The notes beneath the pieces are model-generated. The model had not been told where the DNA came from, ran no database searches, and was given only the letters and a program-made list of their open reading frames with translations. DNA of 41,749 bases, taken from positions 1 through 41,749 of IMG/VR virus record IMGVR_UViG_3300030451_002238. One strand, 5' to 3'. Source of the DNA: a virus. Below, piece by piece: positions 8,444 to 36,729 of this stretch. Both the position numbers and the translations under genes were made by a program. Position 1 is the stretch's first letter. Each line of letters starts with the position of its first letter.

Positions 8444-11400
8444 TTATAGAGGTAAAGGTATTATCTTTTTAAATATTTCAGCAAAGAAATTACCTTTTGA
8501 TTGAGCAGCACCTATTTTAGCCTGTAATTCTGCAGCGTCTATTGTAGCATCTGCAGCCATCTGTTGAATTATGATACTGTTAGCTCTATCAGCATTGCCC
8601 TCTGACACTTGGAAAGCCATAGACATTATATCTCTTTCTCTCTGCCATATTGCATCAAGATTAGTAGATGTCAAAGCGTTTATAGTCTGAGCAAAAGCCA
8701 TGTTGCTTTCGTTCTGTGCAGCAGTGTTAAGTGTTGCTAAGTTCTGTCTCCACTGAGCGTTAGCCTGTGCTATCACCAAACCGTTTTGTGCGTTAAACAA
8801 ATCTCTTTGCTGTTGTATCTGTGAGTTAAACTCTCTCAGTGCGTTGACACTGTTGACGTTAAACTGATCCATAGCATTTGTTTGAACAGCGTTAAATTGT
8901 GATGCCTGACTTGCTAGGTTAGCAAAGAACTGATCTGTTTGATTTTGATTTGCTGCGTTGAATTGTTCAGCAGCGTTCTCTGCAGCCTGATCAGTAAATA
9001 AAGCTTGTATGTTTTGTTGTGCTTTGAACACCTCTGTCTGCTGTCTGTTCGACAGATTAGCCATGTCCATCTGTAAGAAGTTAGCTGCGTTCTGCACAGC
9101 AGCCTGTTGTCTGTTGGATAGGTTAGCCATATCTAATTGAGATAGAGCAGCAGCCTCTGCCATCACCATAGCCTGTCTGTTAGACAGGTTGTTTAAATTT
9201 ACTGTGTTAGCTGCACGAGCATCCTCTAGAGCTATCTGCTGTTCAGCAGTAAAGTTCATGTTAGCTACATCAGAGATCTTAGCTGCGTTCTGTACACGAG
9301 CCTGGAACGCTTGGTCAAACTCTTGCCCTATAAACTGAGCACGTTGTTGTGCTGCAAGCATTGCACGTTGTTGTCTGTTAGACAAGTTTTGTGCTTCAAA
9401 CTGAGCCTGTGTAGCAGCATCTATTTGTGCGATAGGTATTGCAGACTCCATAGCAGCCTGTACAATAGCTTGTCCTGCTATAGAGGATGCACCAAGACCT
9501 CTTGAGATCATAGCGTTAGTAGCAGACCTCATAGCTCCTGCAGCCCAAGCAGGTGTGTTACCACCCTCGAACTGAGCCATCAGACCTTCTAGCTGACCTT
9601 GAACTGTAGCCTGTTTACTTGGTGTAGCCTCTTCAGCCTCTTTAGCTTCAGTAAAAGCTGCAGCAGTCTCAGCGTTAGCAGAACCAGATATAATTTCACT
9701 TTCACCTGTGACAGGATCTGTCTCTAGTTTTCTAGCTGTTGGTCCTTCTACTTTTATTTCTGCACCTTGAGCAGCCTCCATACCTGTCACAGAGGTAGTA
9801 GCCTGTTGAGCAGCATTTACTTTTGCTTGATCTGATAGAGTTCCTTGAGCAGGTTGTAACGCACTCGTTGCAGCTTGCACACCTGTAGCTGCAGTGGCAG
9901 GTGTCATGGTTGCCGTAGGTGTAACCGTAGGCATTGGCACTTGTTGTGTTGTACCTGTTGTAGCAGCTTCAGCAAATGGAGCCATAGGCACAGTCATACC
10001 TGCATCCACTGGTATAAACTCACCTGCAGTGGGTTGTATTCCTGCTATCGGTGCTTGAATAGGTTGCATTGTCTGAGTTACTAAATTAGCACTCATCTGA
10101 GGTATGGGATTAACAACAGTCGTACCTTCTTGGGCACCCATACGCATACCACTCATGTTCATCATAGCCTGTCTGTATTTACCCATACGTGCAGCAGCAG
10201 CAGGGCTAGACTGTAAGAAATTATTAAGCTGTTGAGGAGGACCGTCAAACCCTAAAAATTTTCTAGCTAGTGTAACATCCCCACCTTCAGACATTAGCAT
10301 AGGATCTCTTGGCAATTGCACTTGCACATTAGGATCACCTTGAGATTCAAAAGGAGGAAGTTCTTTTTGATCAGGTGTAGATGTAGGTGTTGTTTGTTGT
10401 GGGTTTGTATTCTCTCTAAAAAAACCTGGTGGCACATTAGTGATAGGTCTACCATTAAACTCAGTAATGGGTATACGCTGTCCTAACTGATTTTTATAGT
10501 ATACTGTCTGATAACCAAATGTGTACTGCTGTCCTGATCCTGGTGCAGTAGTAACAAGCGTCTGGGGCACTGCACCCTGAGTTCCTGCATAACTTGTTTT
10601 ATAAGTTATTTGTTCAGGAACTGCAGATAGTCCTGCAGTCTGTATAGGTGTAGAAAATGTTCCAGTTTGAGAATCAAGTGTAAAAGGTTCTGCTCTAGGA
10701 GAATCTACAATTGGTTCTTGATAAGTTACAGGAGATACTTGTTGAACAACAGTCTGTGGAACAGAGGGATTAATAGGAGCTACTTCATCAGCCTCTAACT
10801 CCAATACCTCTGTTGCAGGAATAGTAGAAGTAAAGTCACCACCTGCTTGTGGTCCTGTTGTTCCAGGTTGTGTTGGATCTGCAGGTTTCATAGGGTCAAG
10901 TACAGGTTCTACAGGTCCTAGAAAAGGATCACTTACAGGATCACCTACAGGATCACCTACAGGATCACCTACAGGATCACCTACAGGATCACCTACAGGA
11001 TCACCTACAGGATCTTCTACAGGATCTTCTACAGGATCTTCTACAGGATCTTCTACAATATCATCGTCTGTATTTAATGAACTTTTTAAATCATCAAAAG
11101 CGCCAAGGACTCTAGTTATGTTTGTAGATTTTTTACCTTTTTTTCTACTTACGTTATCTATTCTTTCAATAGTTCCATCAGTGTTTATCTTTTCAATAAA
11201 ACTAGAATTTTTACCAGACACAGCTACATATTGAGCACCATCAGCATCTGTAAAACTGTCATAAACAGCATATCCTTTATTATCTTTAAATCTATTTAAA
11301 TCAGTTTGGGTAGCTTGTTTAAGGGTTGAGCCACCTGAATAACTTCCTCCACCATAGAGTACAGGATTAGACCGATCCGCTTCACCATAATTTCCAGACA

Positions 11401-11530
11401 ACAATTGTGCATCTCTAGCGGCTGCAGCTTCTGCTGCTATTCTTTCTTGTTCTAATGCTCTATTACTAGGTTGTTGACTAGCCATTTCTTGTGCTATTCT
11501 AGCTGCTCTTTCTGCTGTTGTTTCTGCCAT
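8444..11530 (-). CDS. Large glutamine/alanine-rich repetitive virion protein
   Basis: 1028 residues. The order is: a helical polar N-terminus; an in-frame run of 11 four-residue repeats (EDPV/GDPV, residues ~158-201); a long proline/threonine/glutamine-rich low-complexity middle; a conserved-looking patch SEGGDVTLARKFLGFDG (~413-429); and a helical C-terminal 400 residues with four NLSNRQ repeats and heavy Gln/Ala/Asn content. No enzyme motif is seen. It lies between the lysozyme and propeller genes, so I take it as a structural or internal virion protein. Long Ala/Gln-rich helices are compatible with a trans-envelope tube or tail extension. An AAGG site lies just before the ATG. Function unknown. 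Confidence 0.7.
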   Translation of the reverse strand: MAETTAERAARIAQEMASQQPSNRALEQERIAAEAAAARDAQLLSGNYGEADRSNPVLYGGGSYSGGSTLKQATQTDLNRFKDNKGYAVYDSFTDADGAQYVAVSGKNSSFIEKINTDGTIERIDNVSRKKGKKSTNITRVLGAFDDLKSSLNTDDDIVEDPVEDPVEDPVEDPVGDPVGDPVGDPVGDPVGDPVGDPVSDPFLGPVEPVLDPMKPADPTQPGTTGPQAGGDFTSTIPATEVLELEADEVAPINPSVPQTVVQQVSPVTYQEPIVDSPRAEPFTLDSQTGTFSTPIQTAGLSAVPEQITYKTSYAGTQGAVPQTLVTTAPGSGQQYTFGYQTVYYKNQLGQRIPITEFNGRPITNVPPGFFRENTNPQQTTPTSTPDQKELPPFESQGDPNVQVQLPRDPMLMSEGGDVTLARKFLGFDGPPQQLNNFLQSSPAAAARMGKYRQAMMNMSGMRMGAQEGTTVVNPIPQMSANLVTQTMQPIQAPIAGIQPTAGEFIPVDAGMTVPMAPFAEAATTGTTQQVPMPTVTPTATMTPATAATGVQAATSALQPAQGTLSDQAKVNAAQQATTSVTGMEAAQGAEIKVEGPTARKLETDPVTGESEIISGSANAETAAAFTEAKEAEEATPSKQATVQGQLEGLMAQFEGGNTPAWAAGAMRSATNAMISRGLGASSIAGQAIVQAAMESAIPIAQIDAATQAQFEAQNLSNRQQRAMLAAQQRAQFIGQEFDQAFQARVQNAAKISDVANMNFTAEQQIALEDARAANTVNLNNLSNRQAMVMAEAAALSQLDMANLSNRQQAAVQNAANFLQMDMANLSNRQQTEVFKAQQNIQALFTDQAAENAAEQFNAANQNQTDQFFANLASQASQFNAVQTNAMDQFNVNSVNALREFNSQIQQQRDLFNAQNGLVIAQANAQWRQNLATLNTAAQNESNMAFAQTINALTSTNLDAIWQRERDIMSMAFQVSEGNADRANSIIIQQMAADATIDAAELQAKIGAAQSKGNFFAEIFKKIIPLPL
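9041..9385 (-). repeat. NLSNRQ coding repeats with hairpin potential
   Basis: Four copies of a segment coding N-L-S-N-R-Q, with plus-strand arms at 9041-9055, 9107-9121, 9173-9187 and 9371-9385. In three of them the nucleotides form a perfect 5-bp inverted repeat around a 5-nt loop (CTGTC/GACAG, or TTGTC/GACAA). The second copy does not pair well. Longer flanking similarity (QxDMANLSNRQQ) shows that the protein region itself arose by internal duplication. Confidence 0.75.
10926..11057. repeat. 12-bp tandem repeat, 11 copies, coding for (E/G)DPV
   Basis: Eleven back-to-back copies of a 12-bp unit starting GGATC: one ends CACTTACA, six end CACCTACA and four end CTTCTACA. The unit length keeps the minus-strand frame and encodes DPVG or DPVE. 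The two variants occur in blocks, which suggests recent copy-number change by slippage or unequal recombination rather than selection on single codons. Confidence 0.95.
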
Positions 11531-11540
11531 ACCTTATTCC

Positions 11541-11795
11541 TTATTTACCCATTGTCATCCACACTGCACCTGCGATAAACGTTAGCAGTGCGACAGTGGT
11601 TACTTTAACTATTGTTGACCAGACAGATTTACGTGTGTCTCTCCAAGCCTCTAACAAACTTCTCATCTCTATGATGTCTCTAGCTGCATCATCATCAAGC
11701 AAACCTATAGAACGCAAAGCCTCCTTTGCTCCACGTCTAGCTGCATTGTCTAGCATTTCTTCTAGATCTTCTGGGGTAAGTTTGATGTCACTCAT
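11541..11795 (-). CDS. Small membrane protein, DUF6127-like; holin-like topology
   Basis: 84 residues. An acidic helical N-terminus (DLEEMLDNAARRGAKEAL) is followed by a charged linker with LLEAWRDTRKS, then one hydrophobic segment near residues 61-80 (STIVKVTTVALLTFIAGAVW). The layout (acidic soluble helix, A-W-R-D linker, C-terminal membrane helix) resembles small phage and gene-transfer-agent proteins that I associate with DUF6127; the family name is from memory. The start overlaps the upstream stop as TAATG. It could be a membrane anchor or holin-like protein, but it lies in the tail module rather than the lysis cassette, so I leave the role open. Confidence 0.7.
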   Translation of the reverse strand: MSDIKLTPEDLEEMLDNAARRGAKEALRSIGLLDDDAARDIIEMRSLLEAWRDTRKSVWSTIVKVTTVALLTFIAGAVWMTMGK

Positions 11796-14404
11796 TATGT
11801 TTTTACCAATAACTCTGTTGCTGAAATGGCAGTCCCTGCCAGTACGCTTGGGTCATCTGCTGTTGTGCTTATCGTTCCATCTGTCTGTACAAAGTATTGC
11901 TGCCCTGCGGTGAGACCGATCTGGTTGTCTGACACAGAACCTATGATATCTATTGAAGAATTACCACCATCTGCTACTTCGGCTCTAGTGGTTGCAATAT
12001 TATCTGGCTTAAAAACAACCGCTTTACCCTTGTTACTATCTCCTGCATCTCTGTATGCAGCGACTATGTTAGTAGATGCAACATCATATACTTGAAATGA
12101 AACAGCAGTAGATGCATTATGATATGTAAATTCACTACTTAAACTTCCCACCGCTGTTCCAGAAACTGTACCTGAAACAACCTTACCTATTACAGTAGCG
12201 TTTTTATAAAAGAAAAATACTTTACCTAAATTACTGTTGTATACAACATCGTCCATACCATTTGTACTTGCGTTATGGAATGTAACTTCACTACCAAAGG
12301 AAATTGATGTACCGCTTACAGTTCCAACAACACAGTTACCTTTGTCGCTGTCTCCACCATCTTTGTAGCCAATTACAACTTTATTATTTGAGCTATCAAA
12401 TGCACAGTGAATATCCTCTGATGAGCCACTATTAAAAACAGCAGCAGTGCCATAACTAATATCTGTTCCGCTAACTGTACCTACTCTTGCAGTGCCGTAA
12501 TTTGAGTTGCTACCATCTCTAAATACAACTACAACCTTATTACTATTGCTATCAAAAACTACTGCTGTATAATTGCTATTACTACCGCCCACTTGAACTT
12601 CCGAACCAAAAGAAATGCTAGTACCAGAAACAGTAGCTACTTTTGATTGTATAGCGCCACCTGTATCTTGATAGATAATAACTACTTTACCTGTATTTGC
12701 ATCAAATGTTGCTACGTTAAATTGAGTAGTCGCTGTATTATAAACCGCTTCTGAGCCAAAAGATATTGAAGTACCGCTTACAGTTCCTACGATAGCTGTA
12801 CCATGACTAGAGTTTCCTGCATCTTCATAAACAATAACAACTTTGTCATTTGTAGTATCATAGGTAATACCTATGTGTTCCGTTGTTCCTGAATTAAAAA
12901 CAGCAGGAGTACCAAAACTTATTGACGTTCCAGACACAGTTCCTACAATAGCTGTGCCACGAGTGCTATTGTCACTATCAGTGTACGCAAGAACAACTTT
13001 GTTGCTATCTGGATCATAAACACCATTGGAGACTTCATTTCCCATAGTAGTTATAAACTCAGTCTCTGATCCTAGAGAATCAGCCGACCCTGTTTGAAAA
13101 GCTGTACCCCTCGACATACCAATGTAGTTTTCTGAGGTGAGGGTTGTTGAAGTAAACGCCGATTGAAAAATAATTGCTGCACCTTTTTTTGAATCAGTAA
13201 AATCTTGAAAAGCTATAACGACTAATTTATTTGTAGAATCATAAGCAGAAGCTGTATGATCTGCTCTGTCAGCAAACTTAATAGAAGAACCAAAACTTAT
13301 ACTTGTGCCGCTTACAGTTCCCTCGTTAAGTTCAGAACTTAAAACAGCCGAAGCATCAACATATTGACGATATGTAACAATAAATTTTTGTGCTTCGACA
13401 TTATATGAAAGAGAGGGAAAATCAATTCTTGTGCCAGCAGTTGAAAAAGTAACAGTTGAACCAAAACTTATACTTGTGCCAGAAACTGTACCAACCAACG
13501 CTTTTCCTTTTTCATTATCACCGTTATCTCTAAAAGCAATAACTACTTTATTATTTGTGCTATCAAACGCTATTCTATTTAAATCTGCTCTGGCGCTATG
13601 ATATACAACAGGAGTGCCAAAGCTAATTGACGTTCCTGAAACCGTTCCTATTATTGCAGTCCCATAATCAGAATTGTCCTCGTCTCTGTAAGCTACAACT
13701 ACTTTATTGTTAGAAGAATCAAAAACACATTGAGGGTAGCTTGCTGTTGCCGATTCAAATACAACCTCAGAACCAAAACTAATTGATGTGCCACTGACCG
13801 TTCCTACTATAGCAGTGCCATACCTTGAATTTCCTTCATCTCTAAATACAATAACTACTTTGTTATTAGAGCTATCAAAAGTAGAGTGTATGTAATTAGC
13901 TGAATCGCTACTAAATGTAGCCGCAGAACCAAAACTAATTGACGTGCCTGATACAGTTCCAACGATAGATTGGCAAGTTGAGGCGCTACCATTATATCCT
14001 CTAAACGATATTACAACTTTATCATTAGAGCTATCATAAACAATACTATTGAAACTCGATTCACCACTTGCACCGCCATCATAAAAAACAACAGGAGTTC
14101 CAAAGCTAATAGAGGTTCCACTCACTGTTCCAACAATAGCAGTACCCCTGTTTGAGTTTCCGTTGTCTCTATAAGCAATTATAATTTTATTTTGATCTGG
14201 ATCATGTACAACAGAAGCTTCTAAATAAGTGTTAGTATCTGTATCAAAATCAGTAGCACTGCCAAGAGACTGACTAGCACTGTCCTCACTAACAACACTT
14301 ACAGTTCCATCAGAATTAACCACCACTGGCCTACCACTTGGCAGTGTGCCACTGGCTACCGCTTTAAACTCACCACTTTCTTCAGCACCTATACGTTTTA
14401 GCAT
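11795..14404 (-). CDS. Double seven-bladed beta-propeller tail/receptor-binding protein candidate
   Basis: 869 residues. The N-terminus has the head motif shared by its paralogs (ASGTLPSGRPVVVNSDGTVS). Two blocks follow, each of exactly seven ~50-residue repeats with a core like DSSNNKVVIAYRD followed by GTVSGTSISFG (about residues 45-425 and 440-800). Between the blocks lies a short TLTSENYIGMSRG remnant of the domain that elsewhere ends the protein; the full version (TAGQQYFVQTDGTISTTAD) is at the C-terminus. Seven sheet-forming repeats suggest two beta-propellers, a fold often used to bind sugars. The gene appears to be a fusion or duplication of two single-propeller units like its upstream neighbours. 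Its place after the tail fibre suggests a distal tail or receptor-binding part. The function is inferred. Confidence 0.8.
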   Translation of the reverse strand: MLKRIGAEESGEFKAVASGTLPSGRPVVVNSDGTVSVVSEDSASQSLGSATDFDTDTNTYLEASVVHDPDQNKIIIAYRDNGNSNRGTAIVGTVSGTSISFGTPVVFYDGGASGESSFNSIVYDSSNDKVVISFRGYNGSASTCQSIVGTVSGTSISFGSAATFSSDSANYIHSTFDSSNNKVVIVFRDEGNSRYGTAIVGTVSGTSISFGSEVVFESATASYPQCVFDSSNNKVVVAYRDEDNSDYGTAIIGTVSGTSISFGTPVVYHSARADLNRIAFDSTNNKVVIAFRDNGDNEKGKALVGTVSGTSISFGSTVTFSTAGTRIDFPSLSYNVEAQKFIVTYRQYVDASAVLSSELNEGTVSGTSISFGSSIKFADRADHTASAYDSTNKLVVIAFQDFTDSKKGAAIIFQSAFTSTTLTSENYIGMSRGTAFQTGSADSLGSETEFITTMGNEVSNGVYDPDSNKVVLAYTDSDNSTRGTAIVGTVSGTSISFGTPAVFNSGTTEHIGITYDTTNDKVVIVYEDAGNSSHGTAIVGTVSGTSISFGSEAVYNTATTQFNVATFDANTGKVVIIYQDTGGAIQSKVATVSGTSISFGSEVQVGGSNSNYTAVVFDSNSNKVVVVFRDGSNSNYGTARVGTVSGTDISYGTAAVFNSGSSEDIHCAFDSSNNKVVIGYKDGGDSDKGNCVVGTVSGTSISFGSEVTFHNASTNGMDDVVYNSNLGKVFFFYKNATVIGKVVSGTVSGTAVGSLSSEFTYHNASTAVSFQVYDVASTNIVAAYRDAGDSNKGKAVVFKPDNIATTRAEVADGGNSSIDIIGSVSDNQIGLTAGQQYFVQTDGTISTTADDPSVLAGTAISATELLVKT

Positions 14405-14406
14405 AG

Positions 14407-15870
14407 TTACCCTTTCACTATTAATTTAGTTGCCGATACAGCCGTCCCTGCAAAGACGCTAGGATCATCAGCCGTTGTACCTAGTGTGCCATCGTTCTGA
14501 ACGAAGTAGCTTTGTCCTGCTGTGAGACTAGATAGATTATCAGCTATTGCACCTTGCGTATCTATGATAACTCCTGCACCATCTGCTGCACCACTATTAG
14601 CTATGCCTATGTAGTTTTCTGAGGTAAGGTTGGGATAGTTGCCACTAGGAGTTATAACAACAGCGGTTCCATAATCGCTATTATCATTATCATCATAGGC
14701 AACTACAACTTTTTTTGCGGTAGTATGGTAGGCCATAGTTACTTCACGCACTGCGTTAGTGCCACTAAAATTTGTTGGGCTGCTAAAAGAAATATCTGTG
14801 CCGCTTACTGTTCCCTCAACAAACTCACCGTAACTACCACCTCCACTATCTCTGTAAGCTATGATTGTCTTTTCAGTTGTTGGATCGTACACATGATCTG
14901 GGGCAATAGTAGACGCAGCATTATAAGTAACCTCTGTACCAAAACTTATAGATGTACCACTAATTGTTCCAACACGAGCAATACCATGAGCAAAACCACC
15001 ATCATCTTGAAAACTAACAACTACTTTTCCAGATTGAACATCATAGTTCAAACCTATTCCATCAACAGCGTCATTAAATACAGTAGCAGATCCAAAAGAT
15101 ATAGAGGTTCCTGATACAGTTCCCACAATCGCAGTACCTGCACTACTGTTACCGTAGTCTCTATATGCAATAACAACTTTTCCGTTTACAGAGTCAAATG
15201 CATTAACTATTTTGCGTGAGTTTGCTGATTCAAAAACAGTTGGACTTCCAAAGCTTATACTTGTTCCACTAACTGTACCCACAATAGCTGTGCCGTAATT
15301 TGAATTACCACCATCTCTATAACCAATCACAACTTTATTATTTGTAGAGTCAAAACATATTCCAGGTATGTCTCCTACAGAGGCACTTTCAAAAGTTACT
15401 GCGCTTCCAAAACTAATAGAAGTTCCGCTTACAGTTCCTACTATCGCTTTTCCATATGAGCTGTCGTCTTGATCTGTATACGCAATAACAACTTTATTGT
15501 TACTGCTGTCAAAGGTAGCTCTAATATAAGGAGTAGTTCCAGACTCAAACTCAACAGCAGTTCCAAAGCTTATTGATGAACCGCTTACAGTGCCAACTAT
15601 TGCTTTTCCTTTACTGCTATCTCCTGCATCTCTATAAGCTATCACTACTTTGTCATTTGAGCTATCATAAGCGATAGTTTGAGAGTTAGCAACATTTGCG
15701 GCTTCAAAAACTACAGGTGTACCTGCGGAAGCAGAGGTAGCAACATTTGCTATAGTGGATACCGTTCCATCACTGTTTACACCAACAGCCTTACCATTTG
15801 TTATAGCACCACTGGCTAAAGCATGTTCCTGCCTTGGTAAATTTTGATCGTTGCCTATGACACGCATCAT
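14407..15870 (-). CDS. Seven-bladed beta-propeller tail protein candidate
   Basis: 487 residues, paralog of the flanking propeller genes. The N-terminal ~45 residues carry SGAITNGKAVGVNSDGTVS. Seven repeats (~50-420) follow, each with an F-E-S strand, a DSSNNKVVIAYRD strand pair and a GTVSGTSISFG strand. The C-terminal ~65 residues hold SENYIGIANSG and SLTAGQSYFVQNDGTLGTTAD, ending in SATKLIVKG. A GAGGAG site lies upstream of the tandem ATGATG start. The exact repeat number of seven matches a closed propeller. It is probably displayed on the tail; receptor or polysaccharide binding is an inference from fold and context. Confidence 0.8.
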   Translation of the reverse strand: MMRVIGNDQNLPRQEHALASGAITNGKAVGVNSDGTVSTIANVATSASAGTPVVFEAANVANSQTIAYDSSNDKVVIAYRDAGDSSKGKAIVGTVSGSSISFGTAVEFESGTTPYIRATFDSSNNKVVIAYTDQDDSSYGKAIVGTVSGTSISFGSAVTFESASVGDIPGICFDSTNNKVVIGYRDGGNSNYGTAIVGTVSGTSISFGSPTVFESANSRKIVNAFDSVNGKVVIAYRDYGNSSAGTAIVGTVSGTSISFGSATVFNDAVDGIGLNYDVQSGKVVVSFQDDGGFAHGIARVGTISGTSISFGTEVTYNAASTIAPDHVYDPTTEKTIIAYRDSGGGSYGEFVEGTVSGTDISFSSPTNFSGTNAVREVTMAYHTTAKKVVVAYDDNDNSDYGTAVVITPSGNYPNLTSENYIGIANSGAADGAGVIIDTQGAIADNLSSLTAGQSYFVQNDGTLGTTADDPSVFAGTAVSATKLIVKG

Positions 15871-15875
15871 AGTTT

Positions 15876-16130
15876 TTACTCCTCAGAAGGATCTACCCAA
15901 TCAGGATTAGCTGACCACGTTGTGCCATCAAACTTATATTTGTTACCTATCCAATCGCTAGGTGCGTTGGTTACATTTTCTGTAATAGTAGTATTGCCAC
16001 TGTTTAGATCAGCAATAATAAACTGAGCAGGATCTCCTACTGTAATATTATCTGATGTTGCTGTGATTGTTACGTCATCTGCAAGTAGATACTTGCTTAA
16101 CTTAGTTGATGTTTCTACGATAGTTTTCAT
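15876..16130 (-). CDS. Small hypothetical protein between propeller genes
   Basis: 84 residues, acidic, with no Cys. The N-terminal half looks beta-rich (DVTITATSDNITVGDPAQFII), and the C-terminal half has an aromatic patch (DWIGNKYKFDGTTWSANPDW) that resembles short carbohydrate- or fibre-associated beta segments. It is tightly placed, 3 nt after one propeller gene and 5 nt before the next. It may be a small structural or attachment protein for the propeller array. I do not recognise a family. Confidence 0.65.
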   Translation of the reverse strand: MKTIVETSTKLSKYLLADDVTITATSDNITVGDPAQFIIADLNSGNTTITENVTNAPSDWIGNKYKFDGTTWSANPDWVDPSEE

Positions 16131-16133
16131 TCT

Positions 16134-17603
16134 TTAACCTTTCACTATTATTTCCGTAGCTGATATAGCAGTTCCTGCTGTCACTGAAGGACTATCTGCT
16201 GTTTCACCTAATGTACCATCTGTTTGTACAAACAAAGTTTGTCCTGCAGTAAGGCTGCTTTGATTTCTGTCAATTGTATTTGTTGTATTTATTACTGCAC
16301 TCTGCCCATCTGCAAATGCACCATCTGAAAAACCTATAAAGTTTTCTGAGGAGGTTAGGTTTGAAGTGCTATAAGCAGGTAAATAAACTATCGCTGTCCC
16401 ATAATTTGACTCAGCACCGTCTTTGTAAAAAACAACATGCCTATCTTCATCTGGATCATACACAATTCCCATGTATTCATGTGAAGAGCCACCTCCTGTG
16501 TCTAAAACTACAGGTGTATCAAAACTTATACTTGTGCCACTGATAACACCCCTAATCACTGTTGCGTCCCTAGTTGTATCTTCGTAAGCAATCAACATCC
16601 CACCAGATGTAGTGTCAAACGATATGGCAGTGGAACTCTCCATAATAACCGCTTCATCACCAGAAAATTTTACATGAGTGCCAAAAGATACAGATGTCCC
16701 AGATATTGTGCCAACAGCAGCATATCCTTTACTGCTGTCACCTTCATTTCTATATGCTATAAGTAATTTGTTATTTGTGCTGTCAAATCCTACTCTAGTA
16801 TAATTACTTCCATTAGATGCAACAGCAGTTGCACTGCCAAAACTTATAGACGTACCCGATACAGTGCCAACTATACCAGTTGGATAATCTGAATTACCGC
16901 CATCTTGATATGCTATAAATACTTTTTGTGCGTTGCTATCATATACAGAATTAACCCAAGCTGTAGCAGCAGATTCAAAAACAACAGGAGTACCAAAAGA
17001 TACAGACGTACCACTTATTGTTCCAACTACTGATGTGCCATAACTAGAGTTACCAAAATCAGCATATGAAATAACCATTTTTCCATTTGAGCTATCATAA
17101 ACGGTGGAAGTATAGGGGGAGTTGCCACTTTCAAACTCAGTTACACTTCCAAATGAAACTGACGTACCACTTATTGTTGCGACAACTGCTTTACCTTTAT
17201 TACCATCGCTTTCATCTCTATAGGCTATTAAAAATCTACCTGCTGTAGAGTCAAAGGCTACGGAAATATACGTTGTTGCACCAGATTCAAAAACCGCTGC
17301 ACTTCCAAAAGAAATACTAGAACCCGAAACTGTACCAACTATTGCTGTGCCTTTTTGGAAATTTCCAATGTCCCTATATGCAATAAGAACTTTATCATTA
17401 GTGGTATCATAAGCAGCAGAAAAATCTTTAGAGTTAGCACTTTCAAAAACTGTTTCAGTACCAAGAACTTGTGATCTACTGGTTCCACCAACAACACTTA
17501 CAGTACCATCAGAGTTTACAATAACAGGTTTGCCATCAGTTAAAGCACCAGAAGCTATTGCCCTAACCTGACCATCTCTTGCAATATTACCGAAAGCTTT
17601 CAT
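16134..17603 (-). CDS. Seven-bladed beta-propeller tail protein candidate (first of three)
   Basis: 489 residues, first in transcription order of the three paralogs. It has the same plan: head motif SGALTDGKPVIVNSDGTVS, seven ~50-residue repeats (about residues 45-415), and a C-terminal SSENFIGFSDGAFADGQ and LTAGQTLFVQTDGTLGETAD domain ending in SATEIIVKG. The strand motif is slightly more diverged here (GTISGTSVSFG in several blades). A six-residue change in blade 6 (DTTRDATVIRG) shows that blades evolve independently. The family sits directly behind the tail-fibre gene. Receptor or glycan binding is inferred. Confidence 0.8.
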   Translation of the reverse strand: MKAFGNIARDGQVRAIASGALTDGKPVIVNSDGTVSVVGGTSRSQVLGTETVFESANSKDFSAAYDTTNDKVLIAYRDIGNFQKGTAIVGTVSGSSISFGSAAVFESGATTYISVAFDSTAGRFLIAYRDESDGNKGKAVVATISGTSVSFGSVTEFESGNSPYTSTVYDSSNGKMVISYADFGNSSYGTSVVGTISGTSVSFGTPVVFESAATAWVNSVYDSNAQKVFIAYQDGGNSDYPTGIVGTVSGTSISFGSATAVASNGSNYTRVGFDSTNNKLLIAYRNEGDSSKGYAAVGTISGTSVSFGTHVKFSGDEAVIMESSTAISFDTTSGGMLIAYEDTTRDATVIRGVISGTSISFDTPVVLDTGGGSSHEYMGIVYDPDEDRHVVFYKDGAESNYGTAIVYLPAYSTSNLTSSENFIGFSDGAFADGQSAVINTTNTIDRNQSSLTAGQTLFVQTDGTLGETADSPSVTAGTAISATEIIVKG

Positions 17604-17617
17604 TAAGCTACTTTCTA

Positions 17618-17980
17618 TTAGTCTACTAGAAGTTCGTAACTAACTAAATATGTTAGATCACTGTTTGCAGAGGCTGTAACTGCAAGAAGATCTGTTTCGT
17701 CTAAATAAAATCCGTTGTCTTTGTTTACAACTACTAAAGATGAGTCAGCAGCTACAGATACAGTGCTAGCTATTTTTACATAGCTAGATCCGTTGTCTGT
17801 ACTTACCTCTACTGTAACGTCAGCAGAGTTAGTTCCATCTATGTTTGCAATAATAAGTGAGTTTATCTTTGCACAGTTTTCTGCAGGTACATCAACAATG
17901 TCTGCCCTACTTGTTGTTATTGCACCAACTGCCACCTTTGGGGTAATAGTTGCTACATTAATTATATTTGGAGTTGCCAT
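17618..17980 (-). CDS. Small beta-rich virion protein
   Basis: 120 residues with alternating hydrophobic and polar strands, no Cys-rich or catalytic motif, and repeated V-S/T patterns (DVTVEVSTDNGSSYVKIA, then DLLAVTASANSDLTYLVSYE). The composition is typical of small jelly-roll or immunoglobulin-like phage decoration or tail-tip proteins. It sits between the tail fibre and the propeller genes, each gap under 20 nt. I cannot assign it to a named family; a fibre-linking or decoration role would be a guess. Confidence 0.65.
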   Translation of the reverse strand: MATPNIINVATITPKVAVGAITTSRADIVDVPAENCAKINSLIIANIDGTNSADVTVEVSTDNGSSYVKIASTVSVAADSSLVVVNKDNGFYLDETDLLAVTASANSDLTYLVSYELLVD

Positions 17981-17995
17981 TTACTTTTACCTTTC

Positions 17996-20575
17996 TTATC
18001 CAAATACTATTGCCATAGCAATAGCAAATCCTTTAGTAGCAGCACTACCTGCCGCATAAGTTTTTACATCTGATGCAGGAATAGTTTTCATTGTTCCACC
18101 ATCATTTACTATAAAACCATCAGCATCTGCCAATGTTATTGAACCACCAACAGAAGTATCACCATCTAGTAAATTTAGTTCTGATGCAGTTGCTGTAGCA
18201 CCATCAAGTATATTTAACTCTGCTGCTGTAGAGGTTACACCGTCAAGGATATTTAATTCTGCAGCAGTAGAAGTTATAGCAGTTCCGTTTATCGCTAGTT
18301 TACCTGTGACAACATTAAATGTACCATTGTCCTCAACCCTAGCTACTTCTGTTCCATCTCTTTGTTGAAAGATAAGATCTTTAGCATCTACAACAGGTCT
18401 GATAATTACATCACTAGATGAGTTAGTAATTCTAAGTATCTCAGTTCCGTCATCCTGAAACTTAAAGTCACCACCGTCTGCGTCTAAGATAATATCTCCT
18501 GCCACATCTACTGTCAAGTCTCCAGAGCTAAGATCAATCTCTGTTCCGTCAATAGTAATATTATCTGCAACTAGACCACCATTAGCAGTAAGTTTATCTA
18601 CCTGTAAATCTTCATGGCTAGAGCCTAGTTTTAACTCAAACTTTGGTCCTGAAGTATTATAGGTAAATGTAGCATCATCACCACTACCACCCTCTATTGT
18701 AATACCTGCACCGTTGATTACAGCAGATGTGCTGTTACCACTGTCAAGAACAATATTGTGATCGTTAAGATTTACAGTGGTAGAGTTTACTGTTGTAGTT
18801 GTACCTGATACAGTTAAATCACCTGTGACTGTAAGGTTGTCTGCTACTGTAACCTCTGAGGTGCTGTGTCCTAGTGTAATAGCTGTACCAGATACACCTG
18901 TACCAATAGCAATAGACTCACTACTATTACCTGTATCAACTACAAAATAATTATCGGAACCTTGTTTAATTGTAAATGCGGTGGCTGAGTTATCAGAAAC
19001 AGCAATGTTAATATCTGTACCATCAGCACTAATAGAGTCCAGTGCAATATCACCAACATTAGTGATATTATTATCACCAAAGCTAGTAGCACCCATTGTT
19101 TTGTTTGTAAGTGTTTGTGTTGCTGTCGTACCAACAATCTCTTGATCACCACCAGGAGGTAAGGTTAGCACATTAGTAACAGATGCTGAGTGTGGTTGTG
19201 ACTTAACTGTTTGACCATGAGAATTAGATTCACAGTTAAATACAATAGTACCAGGATTGCTGTTACCTTTTACAACTACTTTACCTGTACCGTTAGGTGC
19301 TAGGTCAATATCAGCATTTGATGTAGTAACAATATCTTGACCATTCATATCAAGGTTGCCACCTAACTGTGGAGTAGTATCCTCTACCACGTTAGATATA
19401 GCAGCACCAGTAGCAGCAAGACCAGAAACTATAGTACTACGAGTAATCTTTTTAAGACCACCACCAGATGTATCTACAGCAAGAAACACATCATCGTTAG
19501 CAACTGTACTGATTTCAGATAAATCTCCTACAGCAGTAGGATTAAAGTTTGTACCATCTGCAATAAGAAGATGTCCTGCAGTATTGGTAGCCATAGTAAG
19601 ATCATCACCACCAATGGTAAGATCTCCAGTTAGTGTAAGATTTCTTATACCAGTGTAGTCTTTGTTAGCATCTAGTATAACTGCTTTAGATGCAATAGCT
19701 GTACCTGTTCCTGTAGAACCTAGATCAAGAGCATTAATCTCTCCTACAACCACTGTGGCACCATCTAGTATATTTAACTCTGCAGCCGTAGATGTAACAC
19801 CATCAAGAATATTAAGTTCAGCAGCAGTTGCTGTAATAGCTGTACCGTTAAAGTTTATTGCATCTGCGTGAAGTGTACCGTCAAAGTAACCATCTTTAAA
19901 CTCGAAAGAACTAGAACCTAAATCTACATCATCATCTGTTGTGGGTAGTATTGATCCATTATTAAATGTAACTTGTGTTTCACCACCTGCAGTAACTGTG
20001 ATTACATCAGAGCCGCTAAAAGCTATGCTTGTGTTTGAGTCAGCATCACCTGCAATACTATCTAACTGTACTGCACCTACATTTGATAATGCAGCATCAC
20101 CAAAGTCTACAGCACCTGCAACAGTAAGTGTTCCTGATACATCTACATTACCATTTATATCTACTGTCGTAGCAGCAATTTGTATTTCTGTATCTGCAAC
20201 AAGATCAAGCTGACCATCAGCACTAGAGTTAATGTAAATAGCTGTGTCACGAAACTGTATCTTTTCATCAGAAGCTATAAGAATATCATCAGAAAACTCA
20301 AAGTAGTCTTCGTCTTCCATCCATTTAAGTTCACCATCATTACTTTCACCATCAAAGGTTACTGTAATATCAGTACCTGCTGTGGCATCACCGATAGTGA
20401 TATTAGTTCCTAACAGTTTAGTGATAGGACCACCCTCTGCAGCGGTGCCATCGTGAGTGTGTCCTGTACTTGCTGCAAATGCAGCTAAGAGTTGATCATA
20501 TTCATTGTTGAACAGATCAGCAGTAATAACATCACCGTCTGTAAAACTAGATTGTCTCGTGTATGTATTACCCAT
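17996..20575 (-). CDS. Tail fibre protein with TAAELNILDG repeats
   Basis: 859 residues. The N-terminal ~60 residues (SSFTDGDVITADLFNNEYDQLL and a GHTHDGTAAEGG segment) resemble the particle-attaching start of phage fibres. The rest is a long array of short beta-strands with repeats such as TSTAAELNILDG (five related copies, in two clusters), TVTGDLTVSGTTTTVNSTT and QLGGNLDMNGQDI, as seen in trimeric fibres of marine phages. I see no S74 intramolecular chaperone domain; it ends in a hydrophobic AAGSAATKGFAIAMAIVFG. It probably forms the shaft that carries or sits beside the propeller proteins and contacts the host. The gene abuts the nozzle gene. Confidence 0.85.
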   Translation of the reverse strand: MGNTYTRQSSFTDGDVITADLFNNEYDQLLAAFAASTGHTHDGTAAEGGPITKLLGTNITIGDATAGTDITVTFDGESNDGELKWMEDEDYFEFSDDILIASDEKIQFRDTAIYINSSADGQLDLVADTEIQIAATTVDINGNVDVSGTLTVAGAVDFGDAALSNVGAVQLDSIAGDADSNTSIAFSGSDVITVTAGGETQVTFNNGSILPTTDDDVDLGSSSFEFKDGYFDGTLHADAINFNGTAITATAAELNILDGVTSTAAELNILDGATVVVGEINALDLGSTGTGTAIASKAVILDANKDYTGIRNLTLTGDLTIGGDDLTMATNTAGHLLIADGTNFNPTAVGDLSEISTVANDDVFLAVDTSGGGLKKITRSTIVSGLAATGAAISNVVEDTTPQLGGNLDMNGQDIVTTSNADIDLAPNGTGKVVVKGNSNPGTIVFNCESNSHGQTVKSQPHSASVTNVLTLPPGGDQEIVGTTATQTLTNKTMGATSFGDNNITNVGDIALDSISADGTDINIAVSDNSATAFTIKQGSDNYFVVDTGNSSESIAIGTGVSGTAITLGHSTSEVTVADNLTVTGDLTVSGTTTTVNSTTVNLNDHNIVLDSGNSTSAVINGAGITIEGGSGDDATFTYNTSGPKFELKLGSSHEDLQVDKLTANGGLVADNITIDGTEIDLSSGDLTVDVAGDIILDADGGDFKFQDDGTEILRITNSSSDVIIRPVVDAKDLIFQQRDGTEVARVEDNGTFNVVTGKLAINGTAITSTAAELNILDGVTSTAAELNILDGATATASELNLLDGDTSVGGSITLADADGFIVNDGGTMKTIPASDVKTYAAGSAATKGFAIAMAIVFG

Positions 20576-35768: not shown

Positions 35769-36443
35769 TTATTTTTCCTTATATAAATTGTTAAAGACAC
35801 GTTCCGTATCCCAAATGTATTCAACATCTTCTTTAGAGTTAAAGATGTTCTGATTAGGTCTAAAGTCTGGTGCACCTTCGCCAGTTTCAAACCAAGCAGG
35901 GTGAGTTACTCTCACTCTATTATTGGGTAACGCAACCATGTTACCTGTGTATTCTCCTGCGTCTAACAACTCCAAAACATGAGATTGTTTATGCTGTGCA
36001 GGATCGTCTGCTACTTCGTTGTCAGTATAGTCAACAGTGAAGTAATACTTTGCAGGGTAAAACTCTCCATCTACTTTTGCTATCCAAGGAGCAGGAGAGG
36101 CCCTTTCTATTTTATATACTGAGTGTGTATGAGACATACAATCCCAGGGTTGTGCTAAGTATGGTGGTAACTCTGTAGGCCATTCCTCAAGGGGGGTATC
36201 TGCCACGAGTGCTGTAAGAGGCATTCTTGCCCACATTGCACCACCATGTATATTCTCTTCATCTTGATCGTCTGATTCACAACCTGTAAAAATAACTTGA
36301 AAACTTAGTGTTCTGTTTGGCATAGTCGTTACTGCTACTACCATACAGTGCAGGAAGTCTCCATGATATTCCTGCATATTCTTTGTGTATTCTCTTCTTA
36401 CCCATGCTTTAAAGTAGGGTATGTTACTTTGTAGATACGCCAT
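35769..36443 (-). CDS. Conserved hypothetical protein
   Basis: 224 residues from the ATG at 36443 ([19 protein letters not shown]). The start overlaps the preceding gene by 20 nt; an upstream in-frame start (36491) would overlap more. The segment VVAVTTMPNRTLSFQVIFTG and the later DCMSHTHSVYKIE, FYPAKYYFTVDYTDNEV and NMVALPNNRVRVTHPAWFETG look like a single well-folded, beta-rich domain, not low complexity. It is unlike its basic neighbours and neutral to acidic. Similar proteins occur in marine phage late regions as I remember. No catalytic motif is recognised. Confidence 0.72.
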   Translation of the reverse strand: MAYLQSNIPYFKAWVRREYTKNMQEYHGDFLHCMVVAVTTMPNRTLSFQVIFTGCESDDQDEENIHGGAMWARMPLTALVADTPLEEWPTELPPYLAQPWDCMSHTHSVYKIERASPAPWIAKVDGEFYPAKYYFTVDYTDNEVADDPAQHKQSHVLELLDAGEYTGNMVALPNNRVRVTHPAWFETGEGAPDFRPNQNIFNSKEDVEYIWDTERVFNNLYKEK

Positions 36444-36729
36444 CTTTTTTGTGTTTCCTTCGCAATTCTGCTTTAGCTTGTTTAAAGACATTTGCTATCG
36501 CTGTCTTGCCCATGACTTTAGCACGTTGTTCTGCTACGGTCAATATTTGGATCTTTCTTGCGTAAGGCTTCTTTATTCTTTTTACTTTAGCTACTGTAGC
36601 TCTGGCATCAGCCATTGTAGCAAATTTGATGGACACCGTATCTTTTGGGTTCTCGTCTGTGTATAGTCTACGTCCAGACCCTTTTGGTTTTTTACCTGTT
36701 CCTACTTTTGGATCTTTTCGCTTTGCCAT
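36424..36729 (-). CDS. Conserved small basic protein ([15 protein letters not shown])
   Basis: 101 residues. The N-terminal [20 protein letters not shown] is a strongly conserved-looking motif, followed by [20 protein letters not shown] and [20 protein letters not shown], then a basic helix. The middle resembles a small alpha/beta domain. It overlaps the upstream gene by 38 nt and the downstream one by 20 nt. I know this type from marine phages but not its job; DNA binding is possible from charge alone. Confidence 0.72.

Follow-up and report, generated by a model that had tools for sequence, protein, structure and literature searches.

The mosaic nature of phage tail adhesins is established, but what unit is exchanged, and by what rule, is usually unclear. 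Decoration proteins can carry host-adhesion parts, as in phi29 gp8.5, which the available text of one paper describes as a tulip base with a host-adhesion spike (PMC7602432). According to the accessible part of another report, the Alteromonas phages A5, V22, and P24 have a tail adhesion module common to different families and morphologies (PMC10579305). The available account of the Streptomyces umbrella toxin UmbA presents diversified, modular propeller lectins on one particle that were exchanged experimentally (PMC13274773), and the portion at hand of a study of marine phage metaviromic islands places host-recognition genes and gene parts among the variable regions (PMC3909814). Here we describe an array of beta-propeller genes in an uncultured marine phage, virus record IMGVR_UViG_3300030451_002238 (the window, meaning the entire 41,749-base record, which has an HMO-2011-type backbone). 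Behind an 859-residue tail fibre gene, the minus strand carries in order a 120-residue gene, gene A, an 84-residue gene, gene B, and gene C. The original prediction placed these three propeller genes correctly (see the table) and described a multi-copy array of adjacent genes; they are neighbours, as it held, but are not strictly adjacent, given the 84-residue gene between the first two. The finding goes beyond a multi-copy array to a slot-and-cassette system: on balance, we consider it probable that the three genes hold exchangeable adhesin cassettes in conserved scaffold slots. They would be three slots of one adhesin array on the tail fibre, each consisting of a ~110-residue scaffold with a closed propeller in one loop, and gene C would carry a second propeller in a second loop.

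The repeat in genes A, B, and C is 50-57 residues long and ends in GT[VI]SGTSISFG or a close variant, much as first described (~50 residues ending GT(V/I)SGTS(I/V)SFG). A blade profile reproduces the predicted counts of 7, 7, and 7+7, which is what a beta-propeller of seven blades should display; because the profile itself derives from 20 of the blades in question, its E-values (1.3e-124 for A, 1.6e-138 for B, and 2.7e-246 for the 14 blades of C) measure internal repetition and not independent kinship. Relatives come from 185 loci (L numbers) besides the window, 181 from IMG/VR scans, several of them overlapping, and four (L053, L054, L192, and L193) from named phage records; a scan of genome contigs gave two loci. 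Removal of identical sequences left 279 complete open reading frames (ORFs) with flanks or blades, including 33 whose two flanks belong to different slot types and 10 without a recognised N-terminal half. The other 236, among them the window's three, have both flanks of one slot type. Exactly 7 blades were detected in 181 of these, 13 or 14 in 37, 11 in one, 3-6 in 14, and none in three, the low counts being lower bounds since the profile can miss degenerate blades. Wide variation of repeat number among relatives had been proposed as a sign against closed propellers; 7 or 14 blades prevail. Blades 1-5 are not position-specific, so blade order carries no signal.

Each propeller splits an N-terminal half (~36 residues, ending GTVSVV) from a C-terminal half (~75 residues, beginning LTSENYIG). 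These flanks are slot-specific and the propellers nearly slot-independent. Across 75 genes, mean identity of the N-terminal half is 72-87% within slots versus 50-54% between them, and that of the C-terminal half (single-propeller genes only) is 88-93% versus 62-65%; the corresponding propeller values are 40-44% and 39-42%. For 174 genes, every combination of slots gives a median propeller identity of 41-45%. For 61 de-duplicated genes, the flank tree needs a minimum of 2 slot changes, a result that is partly circular because slot labels were taken from the N-terminal half, and the propeller tree needs 26, compared with 28.8 on average after shuffling (a count as low came up in 28 of 200 shuffles). 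A C-terminal text pattern agrees with the slot label in 70 of the 75 genes; the other five are one hybrid, three slot-A doubles, and one contig-cut double (pattern unreadable). Recent gene duplication within a genome, as suggested earlier, finds no support in the 84 within-locus propeller pairs, which are as divergent (median identity 43%, maximum 57%) as pairs from different loci (median 43%).

The cleanest exchange case is a pair of loci, L076 and L126, whose array surroundings are at least 95% identical in 29 of 34 steps of 120 bases (range 81-100). Their same-slot propellers share 38, 48, and 39% identity, yet the propeller in slot C of L076 is 99% identical to that in slot B of L126. In DNA, this shared propeller is 97-100% identical throughout and its flanks 53-78%, except for one boundary step of 88%. 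Similar cross-slot pairs link slot A of L017 with slot B of L033 (98%), slot B of L024 with slot A of L029 (97%), and slot B of L015 with slot A of L045 (94%). Shared neighbours, defined as non-propeller genes with a BLASTP match in the available stretches, number 2 of 6 for L017 and L033 (the 120-residue companion, 38% identical, and a downstream gene with 91% identity over 158 residues), 3 of 11 for L024 and L029 (both companions, with 95 and 93% identity, and 39 fibre residues with 90%), and 2 of 14 for L015 and L045 (33 residues at 76% and the 120-residue companion at 98%). Propellers that are nearly identical thus occupy different slots in phages whose neighbouring genes differ. Major capsid and tail genes are 82-95% identical between the window and L027, yet their same-slot first propellers share 37-43%. 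The identity profile of same-slot pairs shows 86-99% DNA identity outside the propeller versus 49-59% inside. In all 24 pairs sampled from 140 same-slot pairs, the fitted breakpoints lie no more than 9 codons from the two junction motifs (medians +2 and 0 codons). The original prediction envisaged recombination between blades or genes. Whole propellers are traded between genes; of 257 cross-protein blade pairs at least 85% identical, none lies in propellers less than 60% identical overall (174 single-propeller genes), which leaves exchange of single blades without support.

The propeller domains are predicted to be closed seven-bladed rings with an N-terminal velcro strand. An AlphaFold2 model of gene A, made from an alignment of 50 sequences, has a predicted local distance difference test score (pLDDT) of 89-98 per ten-residue block over residues 41-410 and aligns with the closed seven-bladed protein YncE with a Z score of 32.9 and a root-mean-square deviation (rmsd) of 2.5 Å over 307 residues. 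In the gene C model (mean pLDDT 78, predicted template modelling score 0.50), residues 46-415 align with YncE (Z 33.1) and residues 457-801 with the lectin PLL4 (Z 31.3). Both models align with complete closed rings, as had been anticipated, and not with extended fibres or solenoids. The final blade lacks the fourth strand, TSISFG: no SFG strand occurs within 14 residues after blade 7 in any of 174 single propellers, and 155 of the 174 have an equivalent, G-terminated D strand ahead of blade 1. With the D strand supplied from the N-terminal side and absent after blade 7, both ends of the ring would meet in one blade, and the predicted models and the sequences agree on this velcro closure.

A ring closed by its own N-terminal strand would have its two ends side by side, so that a whole propeller could move to another scaffold and leave both folds undisturbed. 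Whole propellers would in this way be traded between slots, between phages, and between different backbones. Exchange may proceed by homologous recombination between co-infecting phages, in scaffold DNA around GTVS and LTSENYIG. Junction DNA compared across slots in 46 genes offers a hint only, with identities of 0.76-0.77 beside the junctions and 0.37-0.67 elsewhere, since this conservation is partly built in by windows anchored on the junction motifs. Replacement of whole domains is not the pattern of diversity-generating retroelements; no reverse transcriptase was found among 28 window ORFs scanned with PHROGs, a scan in which no template repeat was sought. Invertible tail-fibre segments such as Mu G and P1 C have inverted repeats around alternative domains, and positions 11541-18000 of the window contain only imperfect inverted repeats of 18-32 nt (73-84%), none at both ends of one propeller. 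A broader proposal, on which we are evenly divided, is that several marine phage lineages share a common pool of plug-in propeller adhesins, any member of which can be swapped into any slot by scaffold recombination, with about three slots per genome, in each of which there may be no propeller, one, or two (or a different propeller family in a third loop), and with no dedicated recombinase or retroelement. If so, adhesins would be combined at the level of the population, giving each virion several unrelated specificities.

Several points weigh against exchangeable cassettes on the tail fibre. The relatives used in the exchange analysis are metagenome contigs, one of which (L030) looks chimeric. 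In cross-slot pairs, a set of 17 that includes near-duplicate contigs, the fitted breakpoints fall within 10 codons of the motifs in 12 and more than 10 codons off a motif in five, one of these lying 48 and 40 codons inside the propeller. Slot labels A and C are slightly clustered on the propeller tree (8 and 25 of 500 shuffles as low, respectively), and B is not (405 of 500). Propeller pairs at least 80% identical are commoner within slots (36 of 5986) than across them (15 of 9065), partly from recurring near-identical contigs. The scaffold halves are modelled with low pLDDT (33-65 in gene A, mostly below 50 in gene C), and one string with the halves in reversed order weakly matched the minor-capsid family PF23982 across both halves (E 0.026). 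Kinship with PLL-type lectins is a matter of fold, since a phmmer search of gene A against PDB sequences gave 0 matches at E up to 10, and YncE, the best fold match, is not known as a lectin. Finally, a cement-like scaffold could mean a place on the head.

The two flanks look like halves of one small (~110-residue) cement-like domain with a distant likeness to phage cement proteins. Ten loci have the halves directly joined, without a propeller, three of the ten being cut by contig ends; in two (L105 and L204) the joined copy stands between companion genes and the next slot. Eight of these natural copies match PF09956 or PF22758 (E 0.0004-0.19), six across both halves and two (L204 and L247) in the C-terminal half only. 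The L240 copy matches only PF23982 (XM1 gp53 minor capsid), and the L269 copy matches PF18454 Mtd_N (8.8e-14) and PF23982. The gene that follows this L269 copy encodes 521 residues, with a similar start and the repeat motif. The natural copies score below the curated (gathering) threshold of the Pfam cement families (best 21.1 bits versus 24), and one joined scaffold construct reached 26.0 bits. When 18 propeller-free scaffolds (17 artificially joined and the natural L105 copy) were searched at E up to 1, 14 matched PF09956 (best 1.3e-5), 8 PF22758, 7 PF23982, and all 18 phrog_4368, which is of unknown function. Five control strings were compared: PF09956 spans both halves of the three strings in natural order (E 1.3e-5 to 0.0004), and in the two with reversed halves it matches the C-terminal half only (0.017) or is absent. 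PF23982 was dropped as scaffold evidence because of its match across both halves of a reversed control. A search of PDB sequences with a scaffold profile yielded nothing useful.

A head decoration, in which the scaffold is capsid cement and many copies of the propellers coat the head as lectins, comparable to T4 Hoc or phi29 gp8.5, is possible but unlikely. The PF09956 matches of 14 of the 18 scaffolds, the weaker ones of eight natural copies, and their dependence on the order of the halves would all suit a head protein. However, no natural copy reaches the gathering score, PF23982 carries no weight, and the array lies behind the tail fibre gene, as the original prediction stated, and not beside the capsid gene. 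Gene order and fusions also point to the tail: the L269 scaffold carries its Mtd_N domain, and in L275 four scaffold-propeller units stand within a long fibre-like protein, behind a shaft motif shared with the window fibre (49 residues, 61%, E 8e-16). The array proteins are most likely located on or next to the tail fibre. The L275 protein (L275:1323-8375) comprises 2350 residues with four complete units (28 blades), and its contig is binned in a Euryarchaeota metagenome-assembled genome (PBTA01000007.1), either as a misbinned phage or as an archaeal virus.

The propellers most likely bind glycans on the host surface, from a probable position on or beside the fibre whose gene is just upstream. 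The gene A model resembles the propeller lectins BP39L (Z 31.8) and PLL4 (Z 31.5), and the PLL/PHL entries listed reach Z 29-31.5, a similarity of predicted fold to PLL-type lectins. Residues vary most in the D-A loop (3.12 bits) and the B-C loop (2.67), less in the A-B turn (2.20), and least in the C-D turn (0.69) and the D strand (0.52), where the strand letters A-D are our own assignment. In the usual propeller topology, ligands bind on one face, and the D-A and B-C loops both lie there. The variable loops together with the lectin-like fold suggest glycan binding, and cassette exchange probably has a role in host range. That the propellers are instead enzymes, sialidase- or lyase-like depolymerases, is doubtful. 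Bacterial sialidases and a glycoside hydrolase are among the best Foldseek E-values, whereas VIA-align ranks YncE and lectins highest; the three window proteins have no Pfam hydrolase match at E up to 10, although no search for catalytic motifs was made, and near-equivalent repeats would suit multivalent binding better than a single active site. The Pfam, PHROGs, and NCBIfam matches of the three proteins (Agenet, Mbeg1-like, P30, Cyclophil_like2, KTSC, and others) are weak and mutually inconsistent and were set aside as repeat artefacts; Cyclophil_like2 is still regarded as spurious, although two relatives score above its cut-off (30.1 and 30.2 bits versus 22.7).

For the second propeller of gene C, the preferred reading is that it was inserted into the C-terminal NYIG domain. 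All 12 doubles that were aligned carry NYIG after propeller 1 and the remainder of the domain after propeller 2. Among 48 genes with at least 11 blades, NYIG occurs only after propeller 1 in 42, only after propeller 2 in 5, and in no recognisable form in 1; none of the 48 has two NYIG motifs, which together with the position of the remaining domain favours insertion into a scaffold. The original prediction saw a shortened NYIG copy between the two blocks and took gene C for a fusion of two genes. The stretch is there, but as the first strand of a single C-terminal domain and not as a second copy. Fusion of two adjacent slot genes is very improbable: such an event fits a pair of full propellers separated by a short NYIG stretch, and the four-unit L275 protein indicates that such fusions occur elsewhere in the family, but the absence of doubled motifs and the displaced domain remainder in every aligned double would require a subsequent precise double deletion, which is formally possible. 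Doubles are also found in slots A and B. In L010, L014, and L079, a different propeller-type repeat (SGL by Pfam on L010) takes a third place, in the C-terminal half ahead of SLTAGQ.

Other arrangements were observed. Slot-B halves surround ~400 residues without detectable blades of this family in L134:5420-6997 and L177:4149-5777 and so hold other cassette types. L030:1355-2806 joins a slot-B start to a slot-A end on a 7 kb contig with four propeller genes, as either a natural recombinant or an assembly chimera. At L105:2115-5093 there is a gene resembling central tail fibre J, with the same array (slot B empty) a few genes behind, and the tail tip may be of the siphovirus type; this tail-tip protein occurs in 1 of 50 contigs, its own. 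Terminase was found in 7 of the 50, and many of the contigs are fragments, so absence says little.

That the propellers merely evolved fast under diversifying selection between conserved scaffold halves, with no exchange, is scarcely tenable: the same-slot DNA profile alone would look alike and median propeller identity is uniform across slot combinations, but fast divergence cannot surround the same propeller with different flanks, as in the propellers that are 94-99% identical in different slots with flanks 46-66% identical (unless all cross-slot pairs are assembly chimeras), nor does it account for L076 and L126, which differ in all three same-slot propellers amid near-identical surroundings.

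Features of the array in the window and propeller-less scaffold copies at other loci
Feature	Position	Strand	Basis
Gene A (slot A), 489 residues	16134-17603	minus	ORF, blade count, AlphaFold2 model, fold match
Gene A scaffold half 1	~17496-17603	minus	sequence motifs
Gene A seven-bladed propeller	~16359-17495	minus	sequence motifs
Gene A scaffold half 2, 'SENFIGFSDG...IIVKG'	~16134-16358	minus	sequence motifs
Gene B (slot B), 487 residues	14407-15870	minus	ORF, blade count
Gene B scaffold half 1	~15757-15870	minus	
Gene B seven-bladed propeller	~14629-15756	minus	
Gene B scaffold half 2	~14407-14628	minus	
Gene C (slot C), 869 residues, double propeller	11795-14404	minus	
Gene C scaffold half 1	~14297-14404	minus	
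Gene C propeller 1	~13142-14296	minus	
Gene C NYIG scaffold strand	~13106-13141	minus	
Gene C propeller 2, best read as inserted	~11996-13105	minus	
Gene C remaining scaffold	~11795-11995	minus	
84-residue companion gene between slots A and B	15876-16130	minus	
120-residue companion gene upstream of slot A	17618-17980	minus	
859-residue tail fibre gene upstream of the array	17996-20575	minus	phrog_31104; partial matches to tail fibre/structural protein genes
Propeller-less copies	L105:7001-7354, L204:3004-3360, L223:3001-3354, L235:2608-2961		
Propeller-less copies	L247:2938-3321, L260:388-735, L269:2836-3309		
Propeller-less copies cut by contig ends	L231, L240, L061		

The two companion genes are found with the array on different backbones. 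The 84-residue protein has counterparts with 82-95% identity in 14 of the 18 loci compared, which span different backbones; among the matches listed there is none for the other four, two of which carry an 88-residue copy. It has no family match in Pfam, PHROGs, or NCBIfam. The 120-residue companion is probably a small structural protein, judging from a weak 32% match to CRP-9 gp46, a 'putative structural protein'. The copy in the window shares 94% identity with the L027 one and about 40-50% with the rest of those listed, and copies on different backbones are up to 98% identical (L015/L045).

The terminase of the window has 86.6% identity to that of Roseobacter phage CRP-9 and 67.8% to that of HMO-2011, and its major capsid protein is 81% identical to that of CRP-9, so both genes place the backbone in the HMO-2011-type group. 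CRP-9, an isolate, keeps the genes on either side of the array, an 84-residue DUF6127 gene (82%), a 1021-residue gene (53% over 745 aligned columns) and, by a weak match (32%), a counterpart of the 120-residue companion. In the place of A-B-C it has gp42-gp45; the three of these that were translated are other proteins, and gp42 has a different propeller-type repeat (Pfam SGL). A search of 50,697 phage records with the gene A protein gave 3 matches, two of them the same phage (ICBM2), and CRP-9 was not among them. Lentibacter phage ICBM2 (MF431616.1 34029-40241), a cultivated relative, has a distant propeller gene in its tail region, where larger genes alternate with short ones and three tail assembly chaperones are annotated. 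Elsewhere in the window, positions 8444-11530 encode a 1028-residue protein with VEDPVGDP and NLSNRQ repeats that is 53% identical to CRP-9 gp40 over 745 aligned columns and has no PHROG match. A ribonucleotide reductase gene lies at 32-1741, and the gene at 35769-36491, which may be an auxiliary metabolic gene, encodes a 240-residue protein that matches the PHROG 'ferredoxin' (phrog_3704, E 6.4e-28). Promoter- and terminator-like sites occur at or near the shuffled number (28 versus 30.0 and 8 versus 5.1, respectively) and were not used.

No published description of these cassettes was found in a search whose coverage left out most subscription journals and bioRxiv, and the word propeller does not occur in the available main text of two papers on HMO-2011-type phages (PMC9038755, PMC8528129). 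Here the unit of exchange would be one folded ring and the junctions two short conserved motifs, with empty, single, and double states present in nature. Such cassettes offer a model for how ocean phages may change attachment, and adhesin content could be read from metagenomes as scaffold slot plus propeller type. They would also represent a natural design in which propellers were plugged into a small viral domain many times. The model makes it possible to ask whether host or particle specificity tracks the propeller or the phage backbone.

Each of the closest known systems shares part of this arrangement. The PLL, PHL, and BP39L lectins of Photorhabdus and Burkholderia (PDB 8q82, 5c9l, and 6gxr) resemble the predicted ring of seven near-equal blades, aligning with the gene A model at Z 30.6-31.8 and rmsd 2.5-2.8 over 311-320 residues; they differ in sequence (7-12% identity), and in the window it is a viral scaffold domain that houses the ring. 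Phage cement and beta-tulip proteins (PF09956; PF22758, with E217 gp24 and Pam3 gp6; lambda gpD and phi29 gp8.5, PMC7602432) resemble the scaffold by weak profile matches, whereas the window-type genes lie in a tail-fibre region and a propeller fills one loop. UmbA belongs to a bacterial toxin particle, its lectin is C-terminal and not a loop insert, and the available account describes no natural cross-slot exchange (PMC13274773). The study of metaviromic islands does not use the word propeller in its available text, which traces no donor or slot (PMC3909814). The Alteromonas phages have in common a multi-gene module of about 35-96% similarity, as far as the accessible part of that report describes it (PMC10579305), whereas in the window family single folded domains move among three positions, with breakpoints near the domain ends.

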